In this document: positions 12,966-17,863 of the stretch, one piece after another
How positions within the stretch are numbered: position 1 is the first letter of the stretch
Layout: every line of letters starts with the position of its first letter
Assembly: GCF_004341945.1 (NCBI RefSeq)
Contig: NZ_SMBP01000012.1
Coordinates: 1 to 64,000, forward strand
Direction of reading: 5' to 3'
Source: Longicatena caecimuris
GTDB lineage: Bacteria; Bacillota_I; Bacilli_A; Erysipelotrichales; Erysipelotrichaceae
DNA length: 64,000 nt
The notes under the pieces: generated by a model
What the model was told of the DNA's origin: nothing
The model's database searches: none
The model's input: the letters and a program-made list of their open reading frames with translations, nothing else
Made by a program: the position numbers and the translations under genes

Positions 12966-12998
12966 TAAAGAAAACTTCTTTTTTAAGAAAAGAAGTTA
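12966..12998 (-). terminator. Terminator of peptide gene 2
   Basis: AACTTCTTTT pairs with AAAAGAAGTT directly at the stop codon of the second peptide gene; the minus-strand U-tract is UUUUCUUU. Confidence 0.65.
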
Positions 12999-13112
12999 TA
13001 CTTTTATATGGATTCTTGAATGTGAAATAGCAGCTGATGGTTTCGTGTCTGCAAATACACAAGTAGCCATTAAGCATAATCCACAAACACCAGCAATAAA
13101 TAATTTTTTCAT
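12996..13112 (-). CDS. Secreted peptide precursor 2, candidate quorum-sensing pheromone (38 aa)
   Basis: A 38-codon gene missed by length cut-offs. The product begins MKKLFIAGVCGLCLMA, a textbook short signal peptide (two Lys, then a hydrophobic core to about residue 20, TCVFADT as a likely cleavage zone), and ends in ISHSRIHIKV. It aligns over its whole length with peptide 1 (13212-13328), about 84 percent identical, with an invariant last heptapeptide SRIHIKV. AAGGA abuts an upstream ATG and is 6 bases before the chosen ATG. Size, signal peptide, conserved short C-terminus and position just downstream of two HTH-TPR regulators on the same strand match PapR, NprX, Phr and SHP-type precursors. 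Function is inferred; export and processing route are unknown. Confidence 0.75.
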   Translation of the reverse strand: MKKLFIAGVCGLCLMATCVFADTKPSAAISHSRIHIKV

Positions 13113-13127
13113 AATCATTCCTTATTT

Positions 13128-13186
13128 TAAAAAGCAAGAAAAGTCTCGTTTTCTGAATATCAGAATGCTATTTTCTTGCTTTTTAA
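13128..13186 (-). terminator. Long hairpin between the two peptide genes
   Basis: AAAAAGCAAGAAAA pairs with TTTTCTTGCTTTTT, with an inner TCTGA/TCAGA stem. The U-rich 3' arm could terminate or attenuate transcription after peptide gene 1. I see no convincing separate promoter for peptide gene 2, so partial read-through may set the ratio of the two peptides. Confidence 0.6.
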
Positions 13187-13211
13187 TTTTTTTAACTATA
13201 TTAAAAATCTT

Positions 13212-13328
13212 TTATACTTTTATATGTATGCGAGATGGTGAAATTGCAGCTGATGGTTTAGTATCAGTAAAAACAAATGTAGCCATCAAACACAATCCAC
13301 AAATACCAGCAATAACCAATTTTTTCAT
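13212..13328 (-). CDS. Secreted peptide precursor 1, candidate quorum-sensing pheromone (38 aa)
   Basis: A 38-codon gene starting MKKLVIAGICGLCLMATFVF, a short signal peptide, followed by TDTKPSAAISPSRIHIKV. It differs from peptide 2 at six positions, of which four are in the signal region and one (P versus H at residue 31) immediately precedes the invariant SRIHIKV. Many differences from its twin are silent at DNA level, so the protein sequence has been kept under selection after duplication. It follows the 409-aa regulator on the same strand and has its own promoter with an overlapping palindrome (13390-13418). Likely role: precursor of a secreted, re-imported signal for the neighbouring regulators. 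No cognate assignment between the two peptides and two regulators can be made from sequence. Confidence 0.75.
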   Translation of the reverse strand: MKKLVIAGICGLCLMATFVFTDTKPSAAISPSRIHIKV

Positions 13329-13489
13329 AATCATTAACCTAATTCCCTGATTATGTTTAGACCATATGCATATCATCATCGACAGGCATATGATAATTGA
13401 TTATCTTGGATTAAACAATAAAACGGCCTTTTATTAATAATAAATAACTTTATTTTAAAATTTCGCTAAATTATCAAATAATTATCAAC
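13329..13489 (-). promoter_or_regulatory. Promoter, operator-like palindrome and leader hairpin of the peptide genes
   Basis: On the minus strand TTGTTT (13413-13418) and TATCAT (13390-13395) are 17 nt apart. The -10 lies within the perfect inverted repeat GATAAT-CA-ATTATC (13392-13405), a good operator candidate. Two further GATAAT copies occur upstream (about 13469-13484). The leader then contains a CATATG...CATATG inverted repeat (13363-13392) that can form a hairpin. Control by the adjacent regulators is inference. Confidence 0.45.
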
Positions 13490-14719
13490 TTATATCATTT
13501 CTTCTAGAACTTTATCATATATATATAGTTTTTTATAACAATTAGTTTCATTTATTAATTTTCTTAATTCAAATTGGAAGACTATAGCAAGATCTTTATC
13601 TTTATTAAAAGGTAAGATTTTTTCCATTATTAAATCCTGTTTTTCTATTGAACTTAGCGCTTTGTAATTTGCATAGAAAAAGTACATATGTTGTGCAAAA
13701 ACAGGATATTTCTCAATATTTTCAACCGGTGGTATGTTAATGTTTAATTCCAATCTACTCTGACAATTTGCCATATATAATAAGTCAATCAAATTAAATG
13801 TTTTTTGGTGTTTTACCATTAATTTAAAATATCTTAGAGATATTTGATATTCTTTTTCATAATGATATATATTGGCAAGTGTAGAGTATGTTTCTCCTAT
13901 TTTATAATCTGACACTAATGCATTTTCTAATATCCCTTCCATTTTTTCTATGTAATCTAACCTTTTACTTTTATTTATATATGTATATAAGATAATATAG
14001 TAATTATATACATCAACTAATCTTATATAATTTTTTGCATGCAGAAAAGTTTGTTCCAAATCTGATAATACTTCATTCATACAATCAAATTTGTTAGTTA
14101 TAGAAAAGTATTTTACGATTAATAGTTTCATATAGGGCTTATCACTTTTTATTAAATTATATTTTTTTATCGAATTAGTATAAGCCTCACAGTTTTCCGT
14201 AGCATAAAGTGCTGCTCTTTCTATAATCAATATTTTGTATAAATCACTATAAACACTTGGGAATATTTCGAGCATTTTCTCATAATGCTTTGCTTTATGT
14301 TCTGTTATAAATTCATTTTTTAAATAATGGTTTTTAACATCAGTAATCAATTCATGTATCTCAGAATAATAAACATAATTTTTTAATCTATTCAACAACC
14401 TTAGAATTTTATATGATATTGTCATAATAGCATCAATATCATAAAACTCAATCGCTTCATATAAAGAAGTTAAAGATAATTCAACAGCATCATCTACTTT
14501 TTTGAAAAATCCAAATTTTAAATTAAACTTTTGTAGAATTTCAGGATAAATGCTATTTCTACAAATATATCCTTGTTCTAACTTTTTTAAAGTATTAACA
14601 CAACAAACATTCATACAAAAATTACTTTTATTGAACTTTTCAGAATCAAAACTAAATAACTCTTCTCTATAAACACCTATCAATAAACCAATTAAACGTT
14701 TTCTCTCTTTTATATTCAT
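13490..14719 (-). CDS. HTH-TPR regulator B, RRNPP-like peptide receptor
   Basis: 409-aa cytoplasmic protein. Residues 1-65 look like a divergent XRE-type helix-turn-helix (RLIGLLIGVYREEL, then CVNTLKKLEQG). The rest is all-helical with TPR-like spacing, for example GETYSTLANIYHYEKEYQISLRYFKL around residues 270-295. It is clearly paralogous to the next gene upstream: shared stretches include LKNYVYYSEIHELITDVKNHYL and YMANCQSRLELNI. Architecture and length fit RRNPP regulators (PlcR, NprR, PrgX, AimR), which bind short re-imported peptides in the TPR groove. A ribosome binding site AGGAG precedes the ATG; the gene has its own extended -10 promoter. The AT content is far above the neighbouring core genes, suggesting acquisition. 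Target genes unknown. Confidence 0.75.
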   Translation of the reverse strand: MNIKERKRLIGLLIGVYREELFSFDSEKFNKSNFCMNVCCVNTLKKLEQGYICRNSIYPEILQKFNLKFGFFKKVDDAVELSLTSLYEAIEFYDIDAIMTISYKILRLLNRLKNYVYYSEIHELITDVKNHYLKNEFITEHKAKHYEKMLEIFPSVYSDLYKILIIERAALYATENCEAYTNSIKKYNLIKSDKPYMKLLIVKYFSITNKFDCMNEVLSDLEQTFLHAKNYIRLVDVYNYYIILYTYINKSKRLDYIEKMEGILENALVSDYKIGETYSTLANIYHYEKEYQISLRYFKLMVKHQKTFNLIDLLYMANCQSRLELNINIPPVENIEKYPVFAQHMYFFYANYKALSSIEKQDLIMEKILPFNKDKDLAIVFQFELRKLINETNCYKKLYIYDKVLEEMI

Positions 14720-14778
14720 AAAGACTCCTAAACCTCATATAAAAAGTATCTTCATAAATCAAAATATTTATATGATTC

Positions 14779-14787
14779 ATTATACCA
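14779..14787 (-). promoter_or_regulatory. Extended -10 promoter of regulator B
   Basis: TGGTATAAT on the minus strand, 60 bases before the start codon, separating regulator B from regulator A as its own transcription unit. Confidence 0.5.
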
Positions 14788-14834
14788 AAATAAATACATA
14801 AATAAAAATCAATTAGATTTTTTTCAAAAAAGCA

Positions 14835-16088
14835 TTAATTATAATCTTCACCATTGTTTTCTATCATTTCTTCAAACATATTCAAATAACTATAATTGTT
14901 TTTATTTACAAATGTTTTTCTTAGCTCATATCGTGTTATATCTATTAACCCTTTATCTGATAATAAAGGTGCGATTTTTTTCATGATAATTTTTTGTTTA
15001 ACAAATGCTTCAACATCATAGTTTTGATAAAAGTTATACAAATATTGTAATACTAAAGGATGTTTTGCAAGAATATCTTGTGTTAAAGTAGGTATATCAA
15101 TCAATAAATTCAAATGGCTTTGACAATTTGCCATATAGATTATATCAGTTATATGCATATTATCTCTATATTTCATAACTTTATTAAAATAGATAAGGGC
15201 TTCTTCATAATTCTTTTCCATGTGCAACGTATTTGCAATACTAGAACAAATTTCACTTACTTTAAATTTAGGAATATTTTCGTTTTCTAAAATCTTATTT
15301 ATTTTATTGAGATAATGTATTCTTCGCTTTTTCTCAATTTCCGAAAATAATAAAAAGGCATAATTATAAATATCAATCAATCTAACAAAATTCTTCTCTT
15401 CTAGAAACTTGTCTTCCAAATAATCAATTTCCTCTTTCAATGATAGATATTGTTCCGTTATCGCATAATATTGTAACATGTACAACCTTAATAATGGATG
15501 ATTATCATCTTTTATATTTAGCTTTCTTATCTTCTTACGATATTCATCTATGTTATCAATTGCAATCGATAAAGCACTCGCCATAATTAGCTGTTTCAAT
15601 AAAACATCAAACTTTTTAGGTAATAAATTTAGAATCTGTTCATAATGTTTAGATGTAGTACTGGCAACCTCTTTATCCTCTAAATAATATCTGTTTACAT
15701 CAAAAAATATATTATATAGTTCTGAATAATATACATAATTTCTAACACGTTCGAGCAAATTTAGAATTTTGTCACAAATCCTGCCAATGCCCTCTAAATC
15801 AAAATATTCAATCGCCTCATACAATGGTTCCATCATCATCTCAACAGCAGTGTCAACTTCGGGGAAATAATCAAAACGCAGCTTCAATTTAGCAAGTAAT
15901 TCATCATATACTTCATCAGAACGACTACATTCGCCACTTTCAATTCTTTTTAAGGTATTGATCGTACAAATACCATCACAAAATCTTAATAACGTATACT
16001 CATTCTGTGTATTATGACGTTTTTCTTCACGGTAGATCCTTATTAATTTACCAATGACACGAATTCTGTTTTTGTTTTTAATTCTCAC
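14835..16088 (-). CDS. HTH-TPR regulator A, RRNPP-like peptide receptor
   Basis: 417-aa paralogue of the gene downstream. The N-terminal HTH is easier to see here: IGKLIRIYREEKR, then LLRFCDGICTINTLKRIESGECSRSDEVYDELL (about residues 12-65). The remaining helical body carries TPR-like repeats, such as SEICSSIANTLHMEKNYEEALIYFNKVMKYR. The start codon is GTG with GAGGAG 7 bases before it. A near-consensus promoter upstream overlaps a TTTCCA/TGGAAA palindrome. Together with regulator B and the two peptide genes it forms a duplicated receptor-signal module. No recombinase or phage gene is near, so the arbitrium (AimR-AimP) interpretation is less likely than a host quorum-sensing role. Receptor function is inferred. 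Confidence 0.75.
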   Translation of the reverse strand: MRIKNKNRIRVIGKLIRIYREEKRHNTQNEYTLLRFCDGICTINTLKRIESGECSRSDEVYDELLAKLKLRFDYFPEVDTAVEMMMEPLYEAIEYFDLEGIGRICDKILNLLERVRNYVYYSELYNIFFDVNRYYLEDKEVASTTSKHYEQILNLLPKKFDVLLKQLIMASALSIAIDNIDEYRKKIRKLNIKDDNHPLLRLYMLQYYAITEQYLSLKEEIDYLEDKFLEEKNFVRLIDIYNYAFLLFSEIEKKRRIHYLNKINKILENENIPKFKVSEICSSIANTLHMEKNYEEALIYFNKVMKYRDNMHITDIIYMANCQSHLNLLIDIPTLTQDILAKHPLVLQYLYNFYQNYDVEAFVKQKIIMKKIAPLLSDKGLIDITRYELRKTFVNKNNYSYLNMFEEMIENNGEDYN

Positions 16089-16197: not shown

Positions 16198-16224
16198 ACA
16201 AAGAAAAAGAGCTATTCGCTCTTT
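16198..16224 (-). terminator. Terminator overlapping the end of the TPR gene
   Basis: AAGAGC/GCTCTT around a 5-base loop, followed by UUUCUUUG and UUUUUUU. The stem includes the last codons and stop of the 16212-17033 gene. Confidence 0.65.
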
Positions 16225-17033
16225 ACTAAAAACATTGGTAAATATTCCATAACATGAATAACTTTGTTCAAAATACGGTATATATAAGCAGCTTCTTCTT
16301 CACTTTTTGGCGTCATGGATTGGCTTTGTGACAAGGTATTCATACTGCGATAGGTCAATATATTATAGAAATGACAATTGGCAGCCTGTAGATATGGTAT
16401 AGCTGTTTTAGCCGCAGCATAATTTTCTGTTTTCAATGATAATAGAAAACGTACATAACAATCCATTGCTGAATGCTGATCATATTTCTGTAAGAGCTCT
16501 TTGCAACTCTCATATTCTTCAAAATACAAAGATAGCGCATAAAGATAATGATGTGCACAGAAGGCATCAGAAGGATTTAGATTTAAAATCTCCTGGAACT
16601 GTTGTTGAGCTTTGCGCATACAGCCAGCTTCATAAAGTGCGCACGCATAAGTGAACTTAATATGAAATAAAGGTTTTGCCTGCTCAATAGAGTAAAAATC
16701 ATCTACCTTGCGTAAGAAAAAATCTTTACCTAAATTCATAGTAGCTAATTCCATTCCCTCTTTATAACGCTGTATTCTTACTGCATGATCTTCTTCATAG
16801 GTTCCAAGCATCATATAGGCCTCAATACAGTCTTCACATATATCTAATGCTTCATAAGCTATTTGCTGTTTCTTCTGCCAGGAACGAACACGCTTACTCT
16901 CTTCAAGCTTTAATAAAGCCTGTTGATAGGATTGTTCATTTTTAGTATAGCCGACATGACTTTCTTCTAGAAATGCATCAAGACTCATTTGAAATGTCAT
17001 GCCTATATCAATAATGTCAATTTGCTCTTTCAT
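16212..17033 (-). CDS. Tetratricopeptide-like repeat protein, function unknown
   Basis: 273-aa cytoplasmic protein without signal peptide or HTH. Helical repeats are visible, notably EALDICEDCIEAYMMLGTYEEDHAVRIQRYKEGMELA (about 63-100) and YACALYEAGCMRKAQQQFQEILNLNPSDAFCAHHYLYAL (about 130-170). The DICEDCIEAY...G.EL pattern occurs in uncharacterised bacterial TPR proteins (ST7/SEC-C-associated type). A GAGG site lies 5 bases before the ATG. It follows the CpXC gene by 50 bases on the same strand and is probably cotranscribed with it. It differs from the two regulators in composition and is not their paralogue. Confidence 0.7.
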   Translation of the reverse strand: MKEQIDIIDIGMTFQMSLDAFLEESHVGYTKNEQSYQQALLKLEESKRVRSWQKKQQIAYEALDICEDCIEAYMMLGTYEEDHAVRIQRYKEGMELATMNLGKDFFLRKVDDFYSIEQAKPLFHIKFTYACALYEAGCMRKAQQQFQEILNLNPSDAFCAHHYLYALSLYFEEYESCKELLQKYDQHSAMDCYVRFLLSLKTENYAAAKTAIPYLQAANCHFYNILTYRSMNTLSQSQSMTPKSEEEAAYIYRILNKVIHVMEYLPMFLVKSE

Positions 17034-17083: not shown

Positions 17084-17695
17084 TTATGTAAAATTTTTAA
17101 TGTGTTGTAACGCCCATCGCTGATTGATTTCATGAAATTTTTTGGTATCTTCTTCTGGCATGCGTTGCTTAACTTGCAGATAGGATTCCCATGTTAGGGC
17201 TAATACATCTTCTTGATCATTTTCTGTATAAGAAAACCAAATCGTTTCACTTTGTTTATCCCTATCTTTATAACGAAGTGTATTAGGATAACGCTGTTGT
17301 TTCTTCAGATAGATATAAACTTTTAATTTCAGAATCTCGATGACTCGATCGTCGAAACCTTCTTCCAATATATGAATCTTTTCTGCAATGTCACGAGCAT
17401 CGGATATATAACGTTTCGTGGCGGACATATCTGCATACAGGTGATGATCCGCCGCTTTCTTTTCTTTTTCTGATTTCATCAATAAGACAAAATGATGTTG
17501 TTTATCCGGATATATACAAGTATGAAAAAAAGATATGCGTGTTCCACATCTTGGACAGGTAAACGCATAGAATTCTTCCTGTTCCAATTGTTGCTTTAAA
17601 TCTGGTTCAAATTCCGGAATTACTACGGTATCACTAGGCTTGTGCGTATGCCAAAGACAAGTCGGACATGTTATTTCTACTAAGATCGATTTCAT
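17084..17695 (-). CDS. CpXC domain protein
   Basis: About 203 aa, cytoplasmic. The N-terminal half carries the CpXC family pattern: EITCPTCLWHTHKPSD, then EEFYAFTCPRCGTRISFFHTCIY, giving two CxxC pairs that probably bind zinc. The remainder is charged and lacks a recognisable fold. I start at MKSILVEITC, where GGTGA precedes at a suitable distance; the open frame offers an ATG seven codons earlier without a site. Function of the family is unknown. Likely in an operon with the TPR gene that follows. Confidence 0.75.
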   Translation of the reverse strand: MKSILVEITCPTCLWHTHKPSDTVVIPEFEPDLKQQLEQEEFYAFTCPRCGTRISFFHTCIYPDKQHHFVLLMKSEKEKKAADHHLYADMSATKRYISDARDIAEKIHILEEGFDDRVIEILKLKVYIYLKKQQRYPNTLRYKDRDKQSETIWFSYTENDQEDVLALTWESYLQVKQRMPEEDTKKFHEINQRWALQHIKNFT

Positions 17696-17863
17696 TAAAT
17701 CACCAACTATGTACATTATACACGCTTACGCCAAAAAGTCACGTACTACCTGTCTCTACCTTATAGATACCAACACCTTAGTAAAATCGTACCTATCCAT
17801 TCCTTTTCTTTATCAACTTTTGTAAGAATTTGATGAATATTAACAAAACTTCATAAAAAAGGC

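Follow-up and report, generated by a model that had tools for sequence, protein, structure and literature searches.

A tandemly duplicated locus of probable RRNPP type in Longicatena caecimuris, with two predicted HTH-TPR regulators and two small peptide precursors

Introduction

Descriptions of RRNPP-type peptide quorum sensing come from Bacillales, Lactobacillales, and part of the Clostridia. In PlcR-PapR, an activator made of a helix-turn-helix (HTH) and tetratricopeptide repeats (TPR) lies next to the gene of a precursor that supplies the signal as its last seven residues, and NprR is a receptor with an HTH and nine TPRs, similar in length to the two regulators reported below. QssR/Qsr systems are known from Clostridium (PMC7206700, PMC7376267), and the RRNPP_detector survey put forward 21 candidate subfamilies; that survey gives the signature of such systems as a propeptide of 10-100 aa with a basic N-terminus and a hydrophobic core, exported by Sec according to SignalP, a receptor of 250-500 aa built of TPRs, and genes -60 to 400 bp apart (PMC10075063). 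Here, we report a locus of Longicatena caecimuris, a member of the Erysipelotrichales, an order of common gut bacteria, in which two regulators (R1 and R2) and two small genes for peptide precursors (peptide 1 and peptide 2) stand on the minus strand in the order R2, R1, peptide 2, peptide 1. The window, i.e., the whole stretch of DNA analysed, covers 64,000 nucleotides (contig NZ_SMBP01000012.1, positions 1 to 64,000, of assembly GCF_004341945.1); coordinates of the features are collected in Table 1. In our view, the locus very likely encodes an RRNPP-type peptide-pheromone system on the chromosome, tandemly duplicated as receptor-receptor-peptide-peptide.

Results

Peptide genes

The precursors of peptide 1 (MKKLFIAGVCGLCLMATCVFADTKPSAAISHSRIHIKV) and peptide 2 (MKKLVIAGICGLCLMATFVFTDTKPSAAISPSRIHIKV) share 33 of 38 residues (87%), and their genes 100 of 120 nucleotides. 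Codons differ at 17 of 40 positions, 12 of the 17 silently, and the Nei-Gojobori estimates are 0.84 for the synonymous rate (dS) and 0.073 for the nonsynonymous rate (dN), i.e., dN/dS 0.087, with silent changes in excess of replacement changes (Fisher p 2e-6). The likeness of the two copies is confined to the open reading frames (ORFs) and ends at their boundaries. The last seven residues, SRIHIKV, are the same in both copies even though three of the seven codons differ, all silently; the residue directly before them is H in peptide 1 and P in peptide 2. A preliminary description of this DNA, made from the sequence alone, had pointed to the 38-codon pair, to the invariant C-terminal SRIHIKV, and to the many silent differences as a sign of selection on the peptide, and our comparison agrees on each; only its figure of about 84 percent identity needs correction, being close to the identity of the DNA and not to that of the proteins.

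Both precursors start with MKK followed by a hydrophobic core and, at 38 aa with a basic N-terminus, fit the length and N-terminal features of the RRNPP propeptide signature; our own heuristic recognised in both the N-region and core of a putative Sec signal. The MKK start of peptide 1 has a Shine-Dalgarno-like site (AAGGA), the spacing being better there, and an alternative start of peptide 2 is the in-frame ATG at 13334 (MIMKK), giving 40 aa at 13212-13334 on the minus strand. The predominance of silent change between the two genes shows that the precursors are translated and under selection; that the two small genes encode genuine precursors, predicted to be of the Sec type, is strongly supported.

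Regulators and their predicted fold

R1 and R2 are 38% identical end to end and fall, with 409 and 417 aa, within the length range of RRNPP receptors. AlphaFold2 models of the two proteins, built with five natural sequences, are of good confidence and reached a predicted local distance difference test score (pLDDT) of 89.6 and a predicted template modelling score (pTM) of 0.81 for R1, and a pLDDT of 86.1 for R2. Each model opens with four N-terminal helices, where the transcription-factor branch of RRNPP (PlcR, NprR, PrgX, Rgg, AimR) has its XRE-type HTH, and continues as a wholly helical, TPR-like superhelix. When R1 was compared with the PDB by Foldseek, ranks 1-3 were taken by NprR (apo, 5dbk; NprX-bound, 4gpk); further matches included RapF, Rap bound to CSF, and the pheromone-bound Rap of phage Phi3T (4gyo, 8rsu, 8rsv), several Rap entries matching at a template modelling (TM) score of 0.5-0.6. 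R2 matched NprR (5dbk, TM 0.51-0.62) and also PlcR-PapR (2qfc, 3u3w) and Rap. Other members of the regulator family match the Pfam models HTH_3 and HTH_31 and TPR models. Taken together, the models strongly support R1 and R2 as regulators with a predicted HTH and a TPR superhelix of the peptide-binding type. From the stop codon of R1 it is 155-161 nt to the start of peptide 2 and 371-377 nt to that of peptide 1, both within the RRNPP adjacency range.

Recurrence of the receptor-peptide pairing

When 273 genomes from the same taxonomic family were searched with a profile of ten regulators, 51 proved to carry homologous regulators; a single-protein scan of the genome contigs had found no relatives, whereas a profile from a narrower alignment did find some. 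For the pairing we used the 63 complete regulators with enough downstream sequence and, as controls, 121 other genes of the same loci, and counted as a peptide gene any small ORF with a ribosome-binding-site-like sequence, a basic N-region, and a hydrophobic core (a heuristic secretion call). Such an ORF lay at most 300 nt downstream of 22 of the 63 regulators and of 1 of the 121 controls (p 6e-11; distances and thresholds were set after the first examples had been seen). The sole positive control (L046) itself adjoins a regulator, at a contig end, and two to three of the 22 paired ORFs are probably spurious by eye (L009; L053, at 209 nt). Distances from regulator to peptide are mostly near 90-200 nt; one other genus (L027-L029) has precursors like those of the window at 483-544 nt, past the tested range.

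The peptide ORFs of relatives showed no frameshift, in a sample with one genome of the species and no close strain. Locus L008 has its regulator (1486-2743) split over two overlapping frames, by a frameshift, an assembly error, or as a pseudogene, and the adjoining peptide ORF (...SSGFGFVIW) is intact. On viral contigs there was no relative, and no close viral fold was found either; there is therefore no sign of a phage-borne, arbitrium-like form.

Common descent of receptors and peptides

The tree of the regulators joins R1 and R2 as sisters (support 100). They fall in a clade of eight (97) whose other members are L007 and, from another genus, five regulators (L026-L029/L051). All members of this clade with a found peptide have a single precursor type, M-K-K-hydrophobic-CGL, with differing C-termini (SRIHIKV, SRYACRTRIF, SRKRIPVRC, IRSTVGIT[S/C]); precursors of the peptide 1 type occur in L007/L089, L090, L091, L029, and L008. 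Over 19 pairs, receptor and peptide similarity were correlated in a Mantel test (r 0.72 for the whole peptide, 0.70 after residue 22; permutation p 2e-4). The signal-peptide half also follows receptor similarity (r 0.51), so that the correlation indicates common descent and not by itself specific recognition. Co-occurrence and co-diversification of the receptor and precursor families are strongly supported.

At L089, from an Erysipelotrichales bacterium of another genus, one regulator and one peptide gene stand directly after a gene for a CpXC-domain protein (Pfam PF14353) that is homologous to the window gene at 17084-17716 (36% identity). The precursor there is related to those of the window, with a different C-terminus. 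Compared with L089, the window has the same neighbourhood plus one extra gene (16212-17033) and the doubled regulators and peptides. The simplest reading is that receptor and peptide would have been duplicated in tandem in the lineage of the window.

Candidate DNA elements

An imperfect palindrome ahead of peptide 2 is a single copy in the 2.95 Mb genome, and a shortened motif of it occurs across the genome at a chance-like frequency. An operator common to the window and L089 is weakly supported, 23 of 1000 shuffles scoring equally well. The inverted repeat between the two peptide genes might terminate or attenuate transcription, which would make peptide 2 the stronger-expressed copy, but this is a guess. 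Rfam gave no RNA overlapping the peptide region, with only a tRNA nearby.

Table 1. Positions of the genes and candidate elements of the locus within the window
Feature	Position	Strand	Remarks
Peptide 1 precursor gene	12996-13118	minus	MIMKKLFIAGVCGLCLMATCVFADTKPSAAISHSRIHIKV; 38 aa counted from MKK; ends AISHSRIHIKV
SRIHIKV codons, peptide 1	12999-13019	minus	candidate mature pheromone or C-terminal part of one
Perfect 16-bp inverted repeat	13127-13186		28-nt loop; candidate terminator or attenuator; between the two peptide genes
Peptide 2 precursor gene	13212-13328	minus	MKKLVIAGICGLCLMATFVFTDTKPSAAISPSRIHIKV; 38 aa from MKK; ends AISPSRIHIKV
SRIHIKV codons, peptide 2	13215-13235	minus	candidate mature pheromone or C-terminal part of one
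Imperfect palindrome (inverted repeat I5)	13361-13394	minus	ATCATATGCCTGTCGATGATGATATGCATATGGT (34 nt); candidate operator; about 32 nt upstream of the peptide 2 MKK start
Regulator R1	13490-14719	minus	409 aa; HTH (about residues 3-63) and TPR superhelix in the AlphaFold2 model
Regulator R2	14835-16088	minus	417 aa; GTG start; R1 paralogue; HTH and TPR in the model

Related loci with other peptide types

Peptides ending in C-x4-C lie downstream of related regulators at L014 (1267-1395), L030, L033, L034, L036, L056, L057, L060, and L011, in several separate receptor lineages; the endings include ICPGPGCDPS, GCSSPDCMWQ, ARCGYPECDFGSY, FCSSPGCWVIA, and YCYGSDCVSLN, and such peptides are possibly disulfide-closed signals. 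More distant regulators, with a CHYHTL motif in the HTH, were seen in another family of the class (L111, L112, L113, L117), in clusters of three in three loci; in all four loci, a signal-peptide ORF comes after one of the regulators and contains a P-L/I-P-F motif (for example, MLPLPFSVFS and ETRPLPFSIKK). At L017/L049, a homologous regulator and a 26-aa hydrophobic ORF (MFIIKLLIALSLIINGSIPSLLLEEK) lie within an apparent locus of a MacB/LolD-type ABC transporter, which is possibly the local target. Tentatively, intracellular receptors for peptide pheromones may have diversified separately into a large branch of their own within gut Erysipelotrichales and neighbouring families, with linear (SRIHIKV type), two-cysteine C-x4-C, and PLPF-type signals, mostly missed by standard TPR models; we would not put this above an even chance.

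Discussion

Proposed mechanism

If the locus works as RRNPP systems do, both precursors would be exported by Sec, as predicted from their sequence features, and trimmed by signal peptidase (in peptide 1 after CVFA). Extracellular proteases would then leave a short C-terminal peptide, either SRIHIKV or a longer form of at most about 11 residues (AIS[H/P]SRIHIKV). The mature peptide would re-enter the cell through the oligopeptide permease (Opp), an operon for which is present in the genome. An OppC-like subunit of 617 aa is encoded in the same genome (L125, 8058-9911, contig C18); by eye, RCC1-like repeats appear to separate the first transmembrane part from the second. Inside the cell, the peptide may bind R1, R2, or both on the concave side of the TPR superhelix, as the fold and the co-occurrence suggest, and thereby alter their DNA binding, at least at the peptide 2 promoter. 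SRIHIKV itself is a candidate for the exact mature signal, and control of target genes by it is putative.

By the duplication, two receptors would read one common C-terminal word. In a variant of this scheme, R1 and R2 each serve their own mature peptide, i.e., two private channels, which the H or P before SRIHIKV could keep apart if the mature peptides were longer than seven residues. The numbers match, two receptors and two peptides, and identity is only 38% between the receptors but 87% between the peptides, that residue being one at which they differ; the heptapeptide common to both copies would suit a shared signal equally. We hold the private channels to be possible, if on the doubtful side.

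Points against and other explanations

Three observations weigh against an RRNPP-type system. First, many proteins look like a TPR superhelix, and the Foldseek E-values of R1 and R2 are weak for this reason (0.001-0.05). Second, neither regulator is above a curated cut-off in Pfam or NCBIfam: the TPR matches are sub-threshold (E 0.0079-0.035 in Pfam), no Pfam or NCBIfam HTH model matched R1 or R2 directly, and by Pfam models alone both miss the TPR threshold of RRNPP_detector, E<1e-5 (PMC10075063). Third, near about two-thirds of the homologous regulators, among them the own-genome paralogue L003, no peptide gene was recognised, so that some of the family may respond to a different ligand; many of these are more distant homologues, and the pairing is thus not universal. 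L003 (1489-2754, contig C18) and L004 (1495-2733, contig C16), the distant paralogues of the same genome, both without a recognised peptide gene nearby, are possibly orphan receptors.

The preliminary description had seen two paralogous proteins with an XRE-like HTH and a TPR-like body in an RRNPP architecture. This reading is supported: the paralogy holds, and so does the fold as predicted, with structural matches to NprR, Rap, and PlcR, and the recurrence of the pairing in relatives, where it had proposed to look, speaks for the architecture as well. The profile search that it had also proposed agrees less, the HTH and TPR being recovered by structure prediction and not by profile matches of R1 and R2 themselves. 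Of what it had listed as contrary evidence, a missing fold in the models and frameshifted peptides in relatives were not encountered; regulators without the small genes do occur, as described above.

HTH regulators commonly control small proteins that are secreted, and the small genes could encode secreted effector or antimicrobial (bacteriocin-like) peptides, controlled by adjoining regulators that sense another ligand. Larger, Cys-rich secreted ORFs downstream of some homologues (148 aa at L031; 69 aa at L061 and L067) are in line with such a role. However, the mature part is predicted to span no more than about 17 aa, receptor and peptide C-terminus co-vary, neither an immunity nor an export gene adjoins the peptides within the window, and the receptor fold is closest to that of peptide-pheromone receptors; we regard effectors as quite unlikely. 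That R1 and R2 are generic XRE-TPR transcription factors beside chance or unrelated small ORFs is very improbable: most distant homologues do lack a recognised peptide, but the strong purifying selection on the ORFs, the enrichment beside regulators, and the receptor-peptide co-divergence all stand against it, and on the first two we reject the idea of small ORFs by chance.

Comparison with known systems

If the pheromone system proposed here is real, it would provide receptors already matched with their peptides, with which communication between gut bacteria could be decoded, and a natural duplication of receptor and peptide in which the origin of new signalling channels could be studied. In our literature search, no paper came up that treats RRNPP together with Erysipelotrichaceae or Erysipelotrichia, and neither name appears in the main text of three RRNPP surveys (PMC10075063, PMC9765709, PMC12700828), whose supplements may already list the system as an unnamed cluster. 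Curated subfamily models (Rgg, PlcR, NprR, AimR, Rap) gave no match for R1 or R2 in Pfam or NCBIfam at E<=1, nor in PHROGs.

In NprR-NprX of the Bacillus cereus group, too, the precursor gene is directly downstream and the signal is short and C-terminal, and NprR provides the best PDB match of R1 (5dbk, 4gpk). In contrast, identity over the structural alignments is only 11-15%, with no match to curated models at the sequence level, the peptide of the window is unrelated, receptors and peptides are duplicated, and the bacterial order is another one. Rap-Phr of Bacillus and phage Phi3T shares the TPR fold (4gyo, 8rsu, 8rsv), and the Phr signals SRGHTS and RRGHTAS have Arg at position 2 like SRIHIKV, the significance of which is a guess; Rap, however, is without a DNA-binding HTH and acts on proteins, whereas R1 and R2 have a predicted HTH. 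PlcR-PapR is matched structurally by R2 (2qfc, 3u3w), but PlcR is shorter, with five TPRs, and no relation was detected at the sequence level. QssR/Qsr and the RRNPP_detector candidates, from Firmicutes that are anaerobic or of other kinds, share the arrangement of the genes, the feature in which the Clostridium receptors were compared. Since the RRNPP structural features that we examined are present and no named subfamily is reached by sequence, we call the system, which is very probably of RRNPP type, a new subfamily of the known superfamily and not a new kind of system.

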